A stretch of 64,000 nt of DNA from an uncultured Flavobacteriales bacterium (GTDB lineage: Bacteria > Bacteroidota > Bacteroidia > Flavobacteriales > UBA7312), in assembly GCA_913048435.1 (NCBI GenBank), contig CAJWWC010000001.1, positions 89,281 through 153,280 of the forward strand, in the 5' to 3' direction. Shown piece by piece: positions 8,679 to 16,996 of this stretch. How positions within the stretch are numbered: the first letter of the stretch is position 1; each line of letters begins with the position of its first letter. The notes under the pieces were generated by a model that saw nothing but the letters and a program-made list of their open reading frames with translations, did not search any database and was not told where the DNA came from. The translations under genes were made by a program, and so were the position numbers.

Positions 8679-10955
8679 TTATTGAACAAAGAATTTAATA
8701 CGATCATTATCAAATTCTATAAAGTATAAACCCGCTTTTAAATTCGTACTAATTTCAATTTTGTTGAGCCCGTTAGTGATAGTTGTGTAATCTGTAATAA
8801 TATTCTTTCCTTGGATGTCGATAATCTTATATTCTATATTTTCTGATTCTAGACCAACTAGAATTAAAGTAAACGTACCGTTATTTGGGTTTGGATAAAA
8901 ATTTATTTCTTGTGTTTTTGACTCATCAATTGAGGTATAAGTACAAACAAATTCACAAGCAACCAGTGAAGAATATGTGCCACTTCCATCCATAGGATCT
9001 ATACAAGCTTCACCAACACAGTTATATGAAGCCTCTACTTGATTTTCCAATTCGTTCACACGCGCCTGAAATTCTTGATAAAACTGATTAACAATATTAG
9101 CATCATGAATAATCATTGTATTTTCGTCATTATTAGTCTCTGCTACACCGGACCAGTTGTGAGAACCCGTAATTACTAGTGGGTCGGAATCTGTATTGGC
9201 ATGATCTATTATACAGTATTTATGATGAAAGCTATCACCAAAACCTTGGTGTGACATTACGTTGACTCCTTCATCCAATAAATATTCGTACTCTGAACCT
9301 TGAGTATTAATTTGCTCAATTATACCACTAACGTTAACTCCTTCGTTTTGTTTTTCAACAATGGTATTACCTAACTGATTGTTTGTAAATACTAATAAAG
9401 CAAAGTTAATTTCTTCATCGGCACTTTTAAGAGCATTTGAAATATTTAATGTGGTATTGTCAGAGGGAGAAAAATATACCTCAAACTCATTACCATTAAC
9501 AATAAAATGATGCGGCGTATTATTTGATTTATCATTTCCAAATTTAGAATTATTAGTGTCAGGCTCATTACCATCGCTCCCCCACATTTCATTAAACTCT
9601 AATTCGTAAGCTCTTGCAACTGATTGGTCTTGAACCATTATGATATGATTTGGATCATTAAAAATTTGTTCAGATGTCCAATTAGTTGAGCCACTTAAAA
9701 CCCAGGAACTATCAGCAATATCGGCATCAATAATAATAAATTTATTGTGCATAATTCCCATTTCCTCGGGTCTCTCTAAAACAGGTATATTGCTATTTAA
9801 ACTTCCCAGTGCCATTGTAGCAGTAGATTCGCAAGTAATATACCTAACTCTAACTCCTCTCTCGTAAGCATCATTGATAGCCGACGTAATCATTGCGTCT
9901 GAGTGGTTATAAACAGCTATGTCTAAGCTATTCATTGCTTTATCGATATATGATTTAATAGAATCGTTTGTGTATACGCCAGAGAACTGAGCATTTTCGA
10001 TAGTTGCTACGCTTGTATCAACAGAATTATTAAAACATAGTCGAATTTTTCCTGATGAAGTTGACTGTGTAGCAAAGGCATATAATGCTGAATAGCCTAT
10101 TTCTTCTTGAGTATTGGAAAAAGCTTGTACATAATATATTGTTCCAGCTTCCAGATTTTCTAAACTGATCGAGTGTTCAAGCGAAGCTTGGTTGTCAAGG
10201 TCGTTAATTTCTCCCAGTTCTAATTCGGGAGTTAATCCATAAGCAACATTGGAGAAACTTTCAATGTTTGTATTCCAATTGACATCAAAACTTGATGTTG
10301 TAATATTGCTTTGTGTGACTGCTGAACTAAAGCATATATCTCCACTGTATTCAAAGTCATTTTCATCTCTCACAAGTAATTGGTAGCCATCAAATCCTGT
10401 AAATGAATATTGTGAAGAAATAGCAGTCATTTTTACTGGACATGATGGGATAAGTGTGTTTTCTAAACTACATCCTGATTTGATGTAAATAATTCCACTT
10501 TGACCTTCAGACGAAAAATTATGAGTGCCAACACTAAAAACTTGACCTGCATTTTCAAACATTACATTTTCGATGCTTATAAGTTCAGATTCTGTATTCT
10601 CTCCAATTTGATTTGGTGTTATGATTTGAGGAACAATACTGTATCCATTGCCATGATTTAACAAGTTATTTACTGGTTGAATCTCAAGTAATCCATTGTA
10701 ATCTATAAGTTCTCCTGTTACAGTTATACTATCACCTCTATTGACACTTGCCATAATTTCTGGGTCATAAATAGCTAAAGCCGCACTAGCGTCTTCTATA
10801 TATCGGATAGGACTACCTAATTCATCACCATTAGTTACAATACCACTTACAGTGACGATTGCTCCTTCACCTTCAGATCGAGCAGTTGCTATATCTTGAG
10901 TGTAGAGTTTAAGTTGTAGTCCAATAAATCCAACTAATAAAAATATTTTTTTCAT
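8679..10955 (-). CDS. Secreted OB-fold/FN3/phospholipase D-like protein with T9SS tail
   Basis: A modular secreted protein of 758 residues. In order: signal peptide (1-20); an OB-fold-like region (about 25-200: AIVTVSGIVTN, GDSITVTGELIDYNGLLEI) resembling those of bacterial extracellular nucleases; a fibronectin type III-like domain (about 207-297); two phospholipase D domains with intact HKD motifs (H403-N-K405...D410 with GSTN at 422-425, and H577-H-K579...D584 with GSHN at 597-600); a Cys motif around 646-671 (C-x4-C ... GSGTYSSLVACEFVC); and a type A T9SS sorting domain (about 682-758, FYPNPNNGTFTL). Two HKD motifs indicate phosphodiesterase chemistry on phospholipid or nucleic acid. The OB domain and the LTD neighbour favour a nuclease, which is inference. 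It follows the TonB receptor by 10 bases. Confidence 0.85.
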   Translation of the reverse strand: MKKIFLLVGFIGLQLKLYTQDIATARSEGEGAIVTVSGIVTNGDELGSPIRYIEDASAALAIYDPEIMASVNRGDSITVTGELIDYNGLLEIQPVNNLLNHGNGYSIVPQIITPNQIGENTESELISIENVMFENAGQVFSVGTHNFSSEGQSGIIYIKSGCSLENTLIPSCPVKMTAISSQYSFTGFDGYQLLVRDENDFEYSGDICFSSAVTQSNITTSSFDVNWNTNIESFSNVAYGLTPELELGEINDLDNQASLEHSISLENLEAGTIYYVQAFSNTQEEIGYSALYAFATQSTSSGKIRLCFNNSVDTSVATIENAQFSGVYTNDSIKSYIDKAMNSLDIAVYNHSDAMITSAINDAYERGVRVRYITCESTATMALGSLNSNIPVLERPEEMGIMHNKFIIIDADIADSSWVLSGSTNWTSEQIFNDPNHIIMVQDQSVARAYELEFNEMWGSDGNEPDTNNSKFGNDKSNNTPHHFIVNGNEFEVYFSPSDNTTLNISNALKSADEEINFALLVFTNNQLGNTIVEKQNEGVNVSGIIEQINTQGSEYEYLLDEGVNVMSHQGFGDSFHHKYCIIDHANTDSDPLVITGSHNWSGVAETNNDENTMIIHDANIVNQFYQEFQARVNELENQVEASYNCVGEACIDPMDGSGTYSSLVACEFVCTYTSIDESKTQEINFYPNPNNGTFTLILVGLESENIEYKIIDIQGKNIITDYTTITNGLNKIEISTNLKAGLYFIEFDNDRIKFFVQ

Positions 10956-10965
10956 AAATCTAATG

Positions 10966-13776
10966 TTAGAAAGTTAATTTTGCTGATAAATTAATTCTTC
11001 TACCAATTCCAAAAAATACACCTGCGGATTTGGCGTCAAAATCAGCGTATTCTGCATTGTATGAGTCGTTGTTTTGAGCATCTGAAATATATACTTTGTT
11101 AAGGGCATTAAGAACACTCAAACGAAAGTTGATTTTACTTACTTTATTTAATTTTAGAGTATATCCAGCATGAAAATCTATCAAAGAATAAGCTGGTATT
11201 TTCCATGATTCACGCCCAGCATTTTCACCATCTAAAGAAAGAGGATCGAAGTCAGAGTAGTAATCGTCAAAATGTGTACCTCTAACTTTTAAATATATAT
11301 TTTCTAGTGGTTCATAACGTATGCTCATTCCAAACTGTGTTTGCGCAGCATCACCTACATGAACTCCTATTGCATCAAATGATTCTACCACTTCATTTCC
11401 AAAATCATCAATTATAGCACTATTATTATCATCATAAAAACGAACACTATCTTTAGATCTCCATGTCCAATCACCGATAGAAACTAATCCTTCAACAGTA
11501 AAGTTTTCTTTTAATTTTTGTGCGAAATCAATTTCAAAACCTTTGTGTAATGCATCCATACCATTAATATTTGCTCTGATTGGTTCGTCATCTAGTAAAA
11601 TTGTTACTCCTCCATTGGATGGTTTGTTTTGCCAGCTCGTGTTATAAAAATTAAAATTTAATGAAAAATCTTTTGAACGATAAGAGTAGCCACCTTCAAA
11701 AGCTTTTACAATTTCGTTTTTAATATCTCTATATAAGTTATTAGAGTAATCATAGATATTATTGAATCTGGGTGCTTTAGATATATACCCTACATTAAAA
11801 AAAATATTATTTTTTAGATCAATATTATAATTAGCTCCCATTTTAATGGTGTTGCCATTTATCCACTTCCAAGCTGTTTCTTGTAGTCTAGCTTCAGGAG
11901 AGTTCATGGTGTAAGCATTACCATTATGAATAATAGTATCTTCTTGCATGGTCTTTACAGCACCAATGATATTTCCACTTTCGTCATATACTATTTCAGT
12001 AAACACAGAGGTACCTAATGCTTCAATATAAGTCGTATCATCTAATACTAAATCTTTCTTTTTAAAGAAGTCAATTCTTTTATAGGCCGAATTAGACTTT
12101 GAGAAATTCACAAATACACTCCAATCATCTTTATCATATTCCAATTGGGAAAATAATCCTGCCCATTTAACAACGCCATCATTGTGATAACCAATTCTGT
12201 CTCCAACTTTTTTTATTTGACTTTCTTGAAGTAAATTGTTGCCTTCATCAACAGCATAGTCACCTCCTAATAAGTCATATACTTCTCTGAAATGCTCACC
12301 TTTGTAATATCTAAGGTCAATGCCACCCGAGAAAGTATAAATTTCATCAATTTGATAGTTTGCGGTAGATAAAGCCCCGTACCAATAATGATTATTTCTA
12401 GAGCTATATATATAAGTATCTGAAGCTTTTTCTGTAAAACTATATAATGGATTTATATTGTTTTTATTAAAATCGTAGGCATCTTGAAAGTTATATCGTC
12501 CATTTAGGTCATAATTATCTCTATTTCCGTTCAAATTAGTACCTCCTCCTTGACCTATTGATATATAGGCAATATTTGAAATGTATAGTTTTTCGTTAAT
12601 TACCCAAAAATCTCGTAACGAAAATTGAGGTTTGTGATAATAGTTCTTTTTTGAGTTGAGAGTTTCAAAATTAGAAATAGTATCTCCATTGGAGTTGAGA
12701 TACCATCTATTTATGTTACCCCAGTGTTTGTTGTAGTTGATACCCTTATTTGAGTATTCTCCGAACAAAGTGTCGTTTATGCCTAAATCATTAGCGTATT
12801 CTGCCGAATAGGTTGCGATATCGCTTTTGTAGGAACGTTGTCCGTGTTGTTGAGGTGCACCAAGTGCAGACAAGCTGATAGTATGTTTTCCTAAGCTCTT
12901 TTGTACTTTAGCATAATAGAAAAAGCCCTCGCTAAATGTTTCTTCTACAAATCCACGACCTCTTTTATATGAACCGGCAAAGGTAAACCCCCAACCGTTT
13001 TTTAATTTACCTGAATTGTATCCTAAAGAAGTTCTAAATTTTCCATAGGAGTCTAATTCTTGTTTGAAACTTCCACCTTTTCTGCTATCAATACCCTTAG
13101 TAAGTAAGTTCATGGTGCCACCAACTGAAGGAATTGCTATTTTAGAAGCTCCGAGACCTCGCTGTACTTGAATATTACTAGTTACCGCGTCTAATCCGAA
13201 CCAATTGGACCAATATACCCAGCCATTTTCCATATCATTTACTGGAATACCATCAATCATTACGGCTACATTACGTTGGTTAAAGCCTCTAATTGTTATT
13301 CGTGCATCACCATCACCACCACCTTGTTGAGTGGCGTAAACACCAGGAGTTGAGTTTAGCACCATGGGAATGTCTTGTGATGCTAATTCTTCGTTAATCT
13401 TTTTTAGTGGAATAGTAGAAAAGGCTACTGGTGTTTTCCTATCAATAGCCACATCCGCAACAACTTGTACTTCATTTAAAAGAATGGTATTCAATTTAAT
13501 TTCTAACTTGATTGGCTTACCATTTAGTGTTAATTTTTTTGTTACTTTTTCGTAGCCTACATAAGAAAATGTCACCTCAATAGATTCTTTACTTGAAACA
13601 AAGGCAAAATTCCCATCAAAGTCAGTAATAATTCCTTTTCCATCATAGGCTATTGTTGCTCCAAACAGAGGGTTGTTGGTAGTATTATCAGTTATGCTAC
13701 CACTAATACGTGTTTGTGCTAAAGTATTACTCGCTGTTGATACTAAAAAAAGTAATAAGATAAGATGAAGTTTCAT
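10966..13776 (-). CDS. TonB-dependent outer membrane receptor
   Basis: A TonB-gated importer of 936 residues. A signal peptide (1-20) is followed by a carboxypeptidase-regulatory-like beta-sandwich (about 22-100, ISGSITDNTTNNPLFGATI ... GYEKV), then the plug (about 115-230, ITIRGFNQRNVAVMIDGIPVNDMENGWVYWSNW) and a long 22-strand-type barrel ending in KLTF. No SusD partner gene lies beside it, which argues against a glycan Sus locus. It sits between an LTD-domain T9SS protein and the PLD-fold T9SS protein on the same strand, so it may import products released by them. Substrate cannot be read from sequence; iron chelates, nucleotides or peptides remain possible. Confidence 0.88.
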   Translation of the reverse strand: MKLHLILLLFLVSTASNTLAQTRISGSITDNTTNNPLFGATIAYDGKGIITDFDGNFAFVSSKESIEVTFSYVGYEKVTKKLTLNGKPIKLEIKLNTILLNEVQVVADVAIDRKTPVAFSTIPLKKINEELASQDIPMVLNSTPGVYATQQGGGDGDARITIRGFNQRNVAVMIDGIPVNDMENGWVYWSNWFGLDAVTSNIQVQRGLGASKIAIPSVGGTMNLLTKGIDSRKGGSFKQELDSYGKFRTSLGYNSGKLKNGWGFTFAGSYKRGRGFVEETFSEGFFYYAKVQKSLGKHTISLSALGAPQQHGQRSYKSDIATYSAEYANDLGINDTLFGEYSNKGINYNKHWGNINRWYLNSNGDTISNFETLNSKKNYYHKPQFSLRDFWVINEKLYISNIAYISIGQGGGTNLNGNRDNYDLNGRYNFQDAYDFNKNNINPLYSFTEKASDTYIYSSRNNHYWYGALSTANYQIDEIYTFSGGIDLRYYKGEHFREVYDLLGGDYAVDEGNNLLQESQIKKVGDRIGYHNDGVVKWAGLFSQLEYDKDDWSVFVNFSKSNSAYKRIDFFKKKDLVLDDTTYIEALGTSVFTEIVYDESGNIIGAVKTMQEDTIIHNGNAYTMNSPEARLQETAWKWINGNTIKMGANYNIDLKNNIFFNVGYISKAPRFNNIYDYSNNLYRDIKNEIVKAFEGGYSYRSKDFSLNFNFYNTSWQNKPSNGGVTILLDDEPIRANINGMDALHKGFEIDFAQKLKENFTVEGLVSIGDWTWRSKDSVRFYDDNNSAIIDDFGNEVVESFDAIGVHVGDAAQTQFGMSIRYEPLENIYLKVRGTHFDDYYSDFDPLSLDGENAGRESWKIPAYSLIDFHAGYTLKLNKVSKINFRLSVLNALNKVYISDAQNNDSYNAEYADFDAKSAGVFFGIGRRINLSAKLTF

Positions 13777-13789
13777 TCAATAATTATAC

Positions 13790-13820
13790 AAAAAAAAGTG
13801 CTGATAGAATTCTATCAGCA
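13790..13820 (-). terminator. Rho-independent terminator after the LTD gene
   Basis: A perfect 22-base palindrome at 13799-13820 (outer arms TGCTGATAG/CTATCAGCA around AATT) is followed on the minus strand by C and a run of eight T. It lies between the LTD gene and the TonB receptor gene on the same strand, so it would reduce read-through from the first to the second. Confidence 0.75.
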
Positions 13821-13836
13821 GTTTAAATTAATAGTC

Positions 13837-14748
13837 TTAGTTTATGACAATTGAGCTATGTTTTATGCTATTATCTTCAAATAATATTGTCAAACTATAA
13901 ATACCACTATTTATATCCTGAGTGTATATGTAAGCTTGTGAATTTGAATGAGTATAATTTAATTCAACTTTTTGTCCAAGAGCGTTAATCAACTCAAAAT
14001 ATTTAATCGCTTTGTTAGCACTTATATTTATTGTTTGGTAGTTTGTAGCTGGGTTTGGAAATAGTATAAAAGAAGTTAATTTATCTTTTATAGAGGACGG
14101 CCCTCCAGAAGAACAATCACACTCATGTGTTCCAAGATTAGTCCAAGTATTAATAGATAACGAATCCCATTCAGCAGCTGGATTAAATAGTAAAGGATTA
14201 GTAGTTATTCCTGATTTAACACTTGCTTTTCTTACAAGAGTATGATTTTTTGTCCACCATGCGCCGCCGTTTCCATCAGTAAATCCTGACGTTGCATCAT
14301 CAGTCCATGCATCACCTGGGTCCTCACCAATTTTACCGATTATATCAACGATAGATCCGTTTTTTGAAAGTGTCATAGCGTCGTTACCATTCATATATAA
14401 TGGAGATGGGTAAGTAGGCGCCCATTGATCGGCCATATTATATAGTTCAACCATAATATAACCAAACTCATTGGATGAGTTAGTATCAGAATTAGTAACT
14501 ACCCAGGTTTCACCGGGATTTATTGTGCCTGATAAATTCATGTCGTCAGAAATTGAACTAGAACCGTTTGAATAACGTTCAATACTGTAACTGCTCAGAT
14601 CAATTGGAGCATCGGTTGGGTTGTAAATTTCAACAGCCTTATTGTTGGAATTACCTTCTATATATTCAGAGAAAAAAAGCTCAGAGCAATCTTGCGCTAT
14701 TAAGTTGAAAGAAGAAAATGTTAAAATAAAAGATAAAATTAGTTTCAT
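13837..14748 (-). CDS. Secreted lamin-tail-domain protein with T9SS tail
   Basis: A secreted protein of 303 residues. Signal peptide 1-18 (...NLIAQ); a lamin tail (LTD) domain about 20-150 with the hallmark LFFSEYIEGNSNNKAVEIYNPT, also found at the N terminus of ExeM/NucH-type extracellular nucleases; then a linker with ECDCSSGG; and a T9SS type A sorting domain about 225-303 (FILFPNPATNYQTINIS). No catalytic domain is visible, so it may be a binding or adaptor protein at the cell surface. It is first in a minus-strand set with the TonB receptor and the PLD protein, separated from them by a terminator hairpin. A TAAATTTG element lies 27 bases upstream of the start. Confidence 0.85.
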   Translation of the reverse strand: MKLILSFILTFSSFNLIAQDCSELFFSEYIEGNSNNKAVEIYNPTDAPIDLSSYSIERYSNGSSSISDDMNLSGTINPGETWVVTNSDTNSSNEFGYIMVELYNMADQWAPTYPSPLYMNGNDAMTLSKNGSIVDIIGKIGEDPGDAWTDDATSGFTDGNGGAWWTKNHTLVRKASVKSGITTNPLLFNPAAEWDSLSINTWTNLGTHECDCSSGGPSSIKDKLTSFILFPNPATNYQTINISANKAIKYFELINALGQKVELNYTHSNSQAYIYTQDINSGIYSLTILFEDNSIKHSSIVIN

Positions 14749-14925: not shown

Positions 14926-15669
14926 ATGTCAGATAGTTTAGTAATAATACCTACTTACAATGAGAAGGAAAATATTGAACGAATAATTCGAAAAGTTTTT
15001 TCGCTCAGTCACTCTTTCGATATTTTGATTGTAGATGATGGCTCTCCAGATGGTACAGCTGACATAGTAAAGGCTCTTCAACTTCAGTTTAAAGGACTTT
15101 TCATTGAAGAGCGTAAAGGTAAATTAGGTCTCGGCACAGCATATATTCATGGTTTTAGATGGGTTTTAAATAGAGATTATGATTTTGTATTCGAAATGGA
15201 TGCCGACTTTTCGCACAATCCAGACGATTTACTGAGATTGTATGCTGCTTGTAAAAATGATGGTGCAGATCTGGCAATTGGCTCACGTTATAAAAATGGA
15301 GTTAACATAGTCAATTGGCCAATGAGTCGATTATTAATGTCATTTTTTGCCTCAAAATATGTTAAGTTTATAACAGGGCTTCCTGTGAATGATTCTACAG
15401 CTGGCTTTATATGTTATAAACGCTATGTTTTGGAAACTATAGATTTAAATAAAATCAAATTTGTTGGTTATGCTTTTCAAATTGAAATGAAATTTAAGAC
15501 TTGGAAATCTAATTTTGATATTCTTGAAGTTCCTGTAATATTTACTGATAGAAAAGAGGGCAGTTCTAAAATGGATTCCTCAATTTTTTTCGAGGCATTT
15601 GTCGGAGTTATTCAAATGAAAATCTCTAGCTTATTTTCCAAATTCAAACAAAAGTCTAAACATGAGTAG
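14926..15669 (+). CDS. Polyprenol-phosphate mannosyltransferase-like glycosyltransferase (GT2)
   Basis: A 247-residue GT-A fold enzyme of the dolichol/polyprenol-phosphate mannose synthase group, which moves a sugar from a GDP- or UDP-sugar to a polyprenyl phosphate at the inner face of the membrane. Motifs: IIPTYNEKENIERII at residues 6-20, VDDGSPDGTAD (nucleotide and metal binding), EMDADFSHNPDDL (DxD region), GSRYKNG, and STAGFICYKR. It lacks the C-terminal membrane domain of some relatives. It overlaps the dihydroorotase gene by 8 bases. In many Bacteroidota this gene, dihydroorotase and a DUF4296 lipoprotein are neighbours, as here. The lipid-linked sugar could feed O-glycosylation of periplasmic and secreted proteins. 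Confidence 0.88.
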   Translation: MSDSLVIIPTYNEKENIERIIRKVFSLSHSFDILIVDDGSPDGTADIVKALQLQFKGLFIEERKGKLGLGTAYIHGFRWVLNRDYDFVFEMDADFSHNPDDLLRLYAACKNDGADLAIGSRYKNGVNIVNWPMSRLLMSFFASKYVKFITGLPVNDSTAGFICYKRYVLETIDLNKIKFVGYAFQIEMKFKTWKSNFDILEVPVIFTDRKEGSSKMDSSIFFEAFVGVIQMKISSLFSKFKQKSKHE

Positions 15670-16996
15670 TACTTTAATTAGTAATGCACTTTTAGTAAAC
15701 GAAGGTAAAATTTTTCTTTCTGATGTGTTGATTGAAAAAGGTTTGATTTCTCGAATTGGACACTCATTAGATGTAAAAGTAGATCATAGAATTGATGCTA
15801 AAAGAAAGTATTTATTTCCAGGAATTATTGATGATCAAGTTCACTTTAGAGAGCCAGGACTTACTCATAAAGCAGATATTTATACTGAATCAAAAGCAGC
15901 AGTAGCAGGTGGTATAACTTCATTTATGGAAATGCCAAATACTAATCCTCAGACTCTTACTCAAAAACTTCTAGAAGAGAAATATCAAAGAGCTCAAAAA
16001 GTATCATTAGCTAACTACTCTTTTTTTATGGGAGCCTCTAACGACAATTTAGATGAAGTTTTAAAAACAGATTCAAAAAAAGTTGGTGCAATCAAAATAT
16101 TTATGGGTTCTTCAACAGGTAGTATGCTTGTTGATGATCAAAGTGTTTTAGAAAACATTTTCAAAAAATCAAAAATGTTGATTGCTGTACACTGCGAAGA
16201 CGAAACAACAATTAAGAACAATACTGCTCACTATAAATCAATATATGGCGATGATGTACCTATCGAAATGCATCCAAAGATTAGAAGCGATGAGGCTTGT
16301 TATAGATCGTCATCAATGGCTATTGAATTAGCTAAAAAATACAATACTAGACTACATATTTTTCATCTTTCTTCTGCTAAAGAAATGAAATTATTCAGAA
16401 ATGATATTCCACTAAAAGAAAAACAGATAACAGCAGAAGCATGTATTCACCATTTATGGTTTGATGATAGTCATTATTCAAAAAAAGGAACTCATATAAA
16501 ATGGAATCCTGCCATTAAGAGTAAGTCAGATAGAGAGGCTATTTTTCAGGCTTTGTTGGATAATAAGATCGATGTTATAGCTACTGACCATGCTCCCCAT
16601 ACTTTAGAGGAAAAGAATAATTCTTATTTTAGTTCACCTTCAGGTGGTCCGCTTGTACAACATGCGTTAGTGGCAATGCTAGAGTTTTATCATCAAGATA
16701 AAATAAGTTTAGAGAAAATTGTTGAGAAAATGTGTCATGGTCCGGCTATATGCTTCCAAATTGAAAACAGAGGATTTATAAGAGAGGGTTATGCTGCAGA
16801 TTTAGTTCTTGTTGATACTAATGACTCTTGGACAGTCAATAAAGGAAATATTTTATACAAATGTGGTTGGTCACCATTTGAAGGAGATATATTCAAGTCA
16901 AAGGTAACACATACTTGGGTCAATGGCCATTTAGTTTTTCAAAACGGTATTTTTGATGAATCCCTAAAAGGACAAAGACTAACTTTTGATAGATAA
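15662..16996 (+). CDS. pyrC: Dihydroorotase
   Basis: Amidohydrolase closing carbamoyl-aspartate to dihydroorotate in pyrimidine synthesis. The 444-residue protein shows the metal-site series of the multi-domain (class I) type: DDQVHFREPG near residue 55, the carboxylated-lysine segment GAIKIFMGSSTG, AVHCEDE, HIFHLSSA, and ATDHAPHTLEEK. In this family the first motif is usually DxHxHxRxPG; here it reads D-D-Q-V-H-F-R, so the first metal His is replaced by Gln. That pattern is common in Bacteroidota homologues as far as I recall, and its effect is unclear. It ends at a strong bidirectional terminator. Confidence 0.88.
   Translation: MSSTLISNALLVNEGKIFLSDVLIEKGLISRIGHSLDVKVDHRIDAKRKYLFPGIIDDQVHFREPGLTHKADIYTESKAAVAGGITSFMEMPNTNPQTLTQKLLEEKYQRAQKVSLANYSFFMGASNDNLDEVLKTDSKKVGAIKIFMGSSTGSMLVDDQSVLENIFKKSKMLIAVHCEDETTIKNNTAHYKSIYGDDVPIEMHPKIRSDEACYRSSSMAIELAKKYNTRLHIFHLSSAKEMKLFRNDIPLKEKQITAEACIHHLWFDDSHYSKKGTHIKWNPAIKSKSDREAIFQALLDNKIDVIATDHAPHTLEEKNNSYFSSPSGGPLVQHALVAMLEFYHQDKISLEKIVEKMCHGPAICFQIENRGFIREGYAADLVLVDTNDSWTVNKGNILYKCGWSPFEGDIFKSKVTHTWVNGHLVFQNGIFDESLKGQRLTFDR

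Follow-up and report, generated by a model that had tools for sequence, protein, structure and literature searches.

A conserved LTD–TonB receptor–nuclease cassette of Bacteroidota with a proposed role in scavenging extracellular nucleic acid

Results and discussion

Organization of the locus

Three consecutive open reading frames occupy positions 8679-14748 on the minus strand of the window, that is, the whole 64,000-nucleotide stretch of DNA analysed in this study. They are transcribed in the order LTD-domain protein with a T9SS tail, TonB-dependent receptor, and a protein in which an OB-like region, a fibronectin-III-like linker and two PLD domains are followed by a further T9SS tail (Table 1). 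Open reading frame calls and Pfam searches bore out the original prediction that three genes with these domains lie in a row, as well as its statement that the receptor lacks a SusD partner, since none of the three proteins gave a SusD-type match in profile searches. The predicted export of the LTD and PLD proteins through the T9SS is likewise backed by Por_Secre_tail matches on both (6e-8 for the LTD protein) and by the presence of SprA, a protein of the T9SS translocon, in the same genome, as expected for type A cargo.

A pair of genes encoding a Glycosyltransferase 2 protein and a dihydroorotase-like amidohydrolase is present at 14926-16996 of the window, and a similar pair is found near the cassette in many genomes, on either side and on either strand. 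These genes were considered as parts of the system and rejected, as they are missing beside many cassettes; they are regarded as conserved neighbours only.

Table 1 Features of the LTD–receptor–PLD locus, in positions of the window
Feature	Coordinates	Strand	Details
LTD-domain surface protein	13837..14748	-	303 aa; signal peptide; T9SS type A tail
LTD domain (residues 20-138 of the LTD protein)	14335..14691	-	Pfam
Terminator-like hairpin and T-run in the LTD-receptor gap	13799..13820	-	~17 nt past the LTD stop
TonB-dependent receptor	10966..13776	-	936 aa; Pfam Plug 9e-13, CarbopepD_reg_2 9e-14
Receptor plug domain (residues 113-220)	13117..13440	-	Pfam
OB/DUF5689-FN3-PLDx2-T9SS protein	8679..10955	-	758 aa; putative secreted nuclease
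OB-like/DUF5689 domain (residues 20-205 of the PLD protein)	10341..10898	-	DUF5689 1.4e-9, isolated region
Fibronectin-III-like linker (residues 213-296 of the PLD protein)	10068..10319	-	weak Pfam matches; fibronectin-type PDB matches with the family profile
First HKD motif (H403, K405, D410)	9726..9749	-	alignment of 27 family members
Second HKD motif (H577, K579, D584)	9204..9227	-	alignment of 27 family members
T9SS type A sorting tail of the PLD protein	8700..8897	-	Pfam Por_Secre_tail 4.5e-10

Domains and predicted enzyme class of the PLD protein

The PLD protein contains two PLDc_2 stretches (Pfam, 6e-36). Both HKD motifs (residues 403-410 and 577-584) follow the HxKxxxxD pattern and are invariant in 27 aligned family members, which agrees with the earlier claim that they are intact, and the GSxNW motifs behind them (residues 422-426 and 597-601) are nearly invariant to invariant. 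In the linker, at residues ~213-296, the match to fn3/Pur_ac_phosph_N was below the cut-off, and a profile of the family found fibronectin-type matches in the PDB.

The OB-like region noticed in the original prediction was also recovered. Searched alone, it matched DUF5689, a match that was missed in the full-length hmmscan of the window protein and obtained with full-length relatives at 3e-11 and 8e-11; a DUF5689 search of the window's own genome found the window locus. Profile-profile comparison between the OB-like part and DUF5689 proteins encoded at receptor loci elsewhere in the Flavobacteriales gave a probability of 90%. An AlphaFold model based on 27 sequences (mean pLDDT 82.7) comprises a beta-rich N-terminal region and two PLD domains, and the order of strands and helix in the OB-like region (pLDDT about 90) is compatible with OB folds.

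As judged by sequence profiles, the PLD domains best match the nucleases Zucchini/MitoPLD, Nuc and NucT. A Foldseek search with the model returned a bacterial phospholipase D (7e0m) first, followed by the 5' exonuclease PLD3. Because the top structural matches are a phospholipase D and PLD3, the fold alone cannot decide between a nuclease and a lipase. We propose that the PLD protein is a secreted nuclease, its cleavage of nucleic acid being inferred without activity data.

Conservation of the cassette in Bacteroidota

Of 60 relatives, 16, from three families, have the genes in the order LTD-receptor-PLD. This count includes G005, whose locus is split by a contig break, G003, whose PLD gene is truncated by the end of the contig, and G001, which has a broken LTD frame. 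Six more of the 60 relatives, from three other families, carry the LTD and receptor genes followed by a gene for a T9SS-tailed Endonuclease I. The receptor cassette was not found in the Flavobacteriaceae-like relatives sampled (e.g. G011, G026 and G053).

Alignment-based genome scans showed that the receptor family is conserved across Bacteroidota. Scanning named genomes with the receptor alignment yielded 80 loci, with an LTD gene upstream in 73; the contig begins at the receptor in three and the LTD gene is absent in four. A PLD or Endonuclease I gene adjoins the receptor in 66 of these 80 loci, and most of the remaining loci stop short at a contig end. Moreover, in a class-wide sample of 149 evenly drawn genomes, LTD lies directly upstream of the receptor in all 43 loci examined, and a nuclease is encoded within four genes downstream in 36 of the 42 loci with downstream sequence. 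For the remaining six, Endonuclease I is encoded at another place in the genome or at a second copy of the locus. Five lower-scoring receptors, used as a contrast set, have neither an LTD nor a nuclease partner. The LTD-receptor-nuclease arrangement is thus conserved in Flavobacteriales, Bacteroidales, Saprospiraceae and further groups. It is not a product of chance, as the same order occurs in relatives and in most of the class-wide sample, and the co-occurrence of the three genes across Bacteroidota that the original prediction had led us to expect takes the form of LTD and receptor genes found nearly always together with a nuclease.

Individual loci show further variation. A locus from a genome titled Glaciecola amylolytica THG-3.7 (L153), a gammaproteobacterial name, has the cassette among Crocinitomicaceae-type neighbours, and this genome is probably misnamed or mixed. 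A calcineurin-like phosphoesterase, judged by eye, is encoded between the receptor and PLD genes at L242:7367-8596. In one locus without LTD (L113:8859-9749), the downstream gene encodes an OB domain and a T9SS tail only, with no catalytic domain.

Exchange of the nuclease and linkage to a 5'-nucleotidase

Either a PLD protein of the window type or Endonuclease I (PF04231), which is unrelated to it, fills the nuclease slot. When the two nuclease labels are placed on a tree of the receptors with 92 rows, they require 10 changes, of which at least seven are forced by well-supported branches, compared with about 26 for shuffled labels; the sister receptors L108 and L109 are accompanied by Endonuclease I and PLD, respectively. 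The accessory domains are shared as well. The OB domain found N-terminal to PLD in the window also lies N-terminal to Endonuclease I in Brumimicrobium/Crocinitomicaceae-type proteins and L212, a related OB domain stands C-terminal to Endonuclease I in some other loci, and L081, G014 and G026 each encode a fusion of LTD with Endonuclease I. Since two unrelated catalytic folds occupy one slot, nucleic acid is their obvious common substrate. The PLD fold that had been predicted for the catalytic part is therefore right for the window and does not stand as a specific trait of the system, the slot being exchangeable with Endonuclease I across the phylum. At one locus, L123:8695-14628, three tandem Endonuclease I genes follow the receptor.

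In 17 Endonuclease I loci, the nuclease gene is followed by a 5_nucleotid_C lipoprotein-like gene and then, where the contig reaches, by a calcineurin-like phosphoesterase gene, the two genes forming a 5'-nucleotidase in two pieces. A 5'-nucleotidase is not adjacent in PLD-type loci. The same split pair is present in the window's own genome, unlinked, on contig C3 (L182:6149-7745), with the C-terminal half first and the metallophosphoesterase half second, and this genome also encodes a NupC-type nucleoside transporter. A secreted nuclease, a receptor and a nucleotidase, none of them assayed for function, are accordingly found in one locus in Crocinitomicaceae-type genomes and split in the window's genome, a gene set that meets the criteria of an extracellular-DNA utilization system insofar as the inferred functions are correct. 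As far as gene content can indicate, the swappable nuclease together with the linked putative 5'-nucleotidase provides the strongest new support for nucleic acid as the target.

The same observations bear on the possibility that the PLD protein is a phospholipase or another phosphodiesterase, and that the cassette scavenges phospholipid head groups or, for example, teichoic acid. The PLD superfamily includes lipases, and the fold search, with its phospholipase D ranked first, does not by itself exclude such an activity. However, Endonuclease I takes the place of PLD in the slot, including after the shared OB domain, a 5'-nucleotidase is linked, and the top sequence matches are nucleases, with the caveat that MitoPLD is also known as cardiolipin hydrolase. 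The lipase reading is weakened by the Endonuclease I swap, and we consider it very unlikely.

The LTD protein and the LTD-receptor gap

The LTD protein (Pfam LTD, 3.1e-17) matches the N-terminal LTD part of an ExeM profile at 2e-24. Comparison of its model with the PDB gave only weak immunoglobulin-like matches and matches to T9SS tails, which do not indicate a function. Pairwise distances of LTD proteins and receptors are correlated (r=0.60; permutation maximum 0.14), with the caveat that common species descent by itself yields such a correlation too. The LTD protein is proposed to be a putative nucleic-acid capture protein, with binding inferred.

A hairpin followed by a T-run, strictly defined, was detected in 41 of 116 LTD-receptor gaps, compared with one of 116 dinucleotide shuffles, and in one of 90 receptor-nuclease gaps. 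Its stem is maintained by paired changes in close relatives (G006/G009). A hairpin in this gap thus recurs across Bacteroidota, whereas the receptor-nuclease gap generally lacks one. The position of the hairpin suggests a partial terminator, by which the LTD protein would be made in excess of the receptor and the nuclease, although this is an inference.

The receptor and its cargo

Solved relatives of the receptor in the PDB are similar mainly in the plug and N-terminal parts, and for this reason its cargo cannot be read from sequence. Assignment as a vitamin B12 or siderophore receptor was rejected, the NCBIfam and PDB matches covering mainly the plug/N-terminal part and lying far below the cut-off. 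We propose that the receptor imports the products of cutting; what exactly is imported is inferred.

Secreted nucleases often have defensive or matrix-remodelling roles, and the cassette nuclease might accordingly serve to remove extracellular DNA of biofilm matrix or traps while the receptor imports something unrelated. This explanation does not readily account for the tight linkage of one receptor family to LTD and nuclease throughout the phylum, for the genome of the window, in which only one of 13 plug-domain receptors lies at an LTD/PLD locus, or for the linkage to a nucleotidase, and it appears highly improbable.

A second DUF5689 system and natural transformation

Some relatives carry a second system, in which a different TonB receptor lies beside one or two DUF5689 lipoprotein-like proteins. 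At L292:13010-18745, L298:12272-18585 and L299:13099-18863, the DUF5689 and receptor genes are adjoined by a divergent EEP-type nuclease (Pfam-confirmed for L292; the other EEP nucleases were judged by likeness), and these loci resemble the transformation genes of Riemerella. At L300:3984-11231, downstream of a different TonB receptor lie genes for two DUF5689-type proteins, for an S1/P1 nuclease and for a split 5'-nucleotidase, making this locus a second candidate for a nucleic-acid system.

In Riemerella anatipestifer, the receptor-like outer-membrane protein RA0C_RS04915, which has a carboxypeptidase-regulatory domain, is encoded near the DUF5689 protein RA0C_RS04920, and both are experimentally required for natural transformation (PMC8459023). 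In addition, tonB mutants of this species transform less (PMC8383284). The gene make-up and the tonB data support the view that DUF5689/TonB systems act on nucleic acid. They also raise the alternative that the cassette takes up DNA across the outer membrane mainly for natural transformation, with the nuclease trimming or nicking captured DNA and the receptor handing polymeric DNA to the ComEC pathway. The OB domain of the window is DUF5689-like, and ComEC was found in several related genomes, so this alternative is not excluded. On the other hand, the receptors beside canonical DUF5689 lipoproteins are only distant kin of the cassette receptors (about 1e-27 to 1e-53 with the family profile, versus <1e-200 for cassette members), and the corresponding Flavobacteriaceae-type loci differ from the cassette in having a distant receptor paralogue, no LTD protein and a lipoprotein-like DUF5689 partner. 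A non-specific surface nuclease would also destroy donor DNA. As the linked nucleotidase fits a nutritional role better, we favour nutrition, and a role mainly in transformation is considered unlikely. The comparison with Riemerella rests on gene make-up, Riemerella sequences not being among those aligned, and the DNA-uptake model for this bacterium is called speculative by its own authors (PMC8459023).

Proposed function of the cassette

The three-gene system of the original prediction exists and is conserved, and genome context lends good support to its proposed cutting and import of an extracellular polymer, perhaps DNA, in the absence of activity data. Very probably, nucleic acid is cut outside the cell and the pieces are imported, both steps being inferred. 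We interpret the cassette as a system for scavenging nucleic acid, with a probability of about 0.68; cutting by the PLD protein, binding by the LTD protein, the exact import and the food purpose are all inferred. In the proposed mechanism, the LTD protein, exported by the T9SS, would act at the cell surface to capture extracellular DNA or RNA, which the T9SS-exported OB-PLD nuclease would cut. The resulting oligonucleotides or nucleotides would then be drawn into the periplasm by the TonB-dependent receptor, and there the split 5'-nucleotidase may free phosphate and nucleosides, the latter being taken up by an inner-membrane nucleoside transporter. The purpose would be mainly food, that is, phosphate, nitrogen and nucleosides. 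The scavenging interpretation is limited by the lack of activity, binding or uptake data for any member of the cassette.

A bolder proposal is that the receptor translocates polymeric nucleic acid over the outer membrane, fed by LTD capture and an interchangeable nuclease, which would make it a TonB-driven counterpart to pilus-based DNA uptake, for nutrition and possibly transformation, across Bacteroidota. We regard this as doubtful, though not excluded.

How DNA or its pieces cross the outer membrane in Bacteroidota is not established, and the cassette names a concrete candidate transporter. The combination of surface capture, a swappable nuclease and one receptor family connects the scavenging of nutrients to a possible route for DNA uptake, and offers a likely function for unannotated genes, including the DUF5689-like OB domain, the small LTD proteins and one TonB receptor family.

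Comparison with known systems

No description of an LTD-TonB-nuclease cassette was found in the literature searched, which did not cover preprints and most subscription journals, so that this absence is no proof of novelty. Several known systems share parts of it. SusC/SusD polysaccharide utilization loci similarly combine a surface enzyme, a surface binder and a TonB receptor for one polymer, whereas the cassette has no SusD and no glycoside hydrolase, and instead a T9SS-exported LTD binder and a nuclease as the enzyme; with LTD and nuclease as the receptor's neighbours, the locus does not qualify as a SusC/SusD locus.

In marine sediment, degradation of extracellular DNA by Bacteroidota is reportedly widespread, and Lutibacter, a member of this phylum, takes up carbon from DNA according to isotope labelling (PMC8289736). 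The DNA-degradation loci of Ca. Izemoplasmatales described in the same paper resemble the cassette in that genes for LTD-bearing secreted nucleases, nucleotidases and nucleoside transporters lie close together, whereas a TonB receptor cassette is unmentioned and the word 'TonB' is absent there (PMC8289736). NucA (Fjoh_4723) of Flavobacterium johnsoniae is an Endonuclease I exported by the T9SS via the same kind of tail (PDB 8glk) and is a physically trapped T9SS substrate (PMC10994853), but in that bacterium it is a stand-alone cargo.

In its domains the cassette also resembles ExeM/NucH of Shewanella and others, in which LTD and OB-like domains likewise accompany a nuclease for extracellular DNA. 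These enzymes are single polypeptides with an EEP catalytic domain, and the contrast drawn with them in the original prediction holds, since none of the three window proteins matched an EEP domain in profile searches. The window cassette differs from ExeM/NucH in its separate LTD protein, its catalysis by PLD or Endonuclease I, its T9SS export and its built-in TonB receptor.
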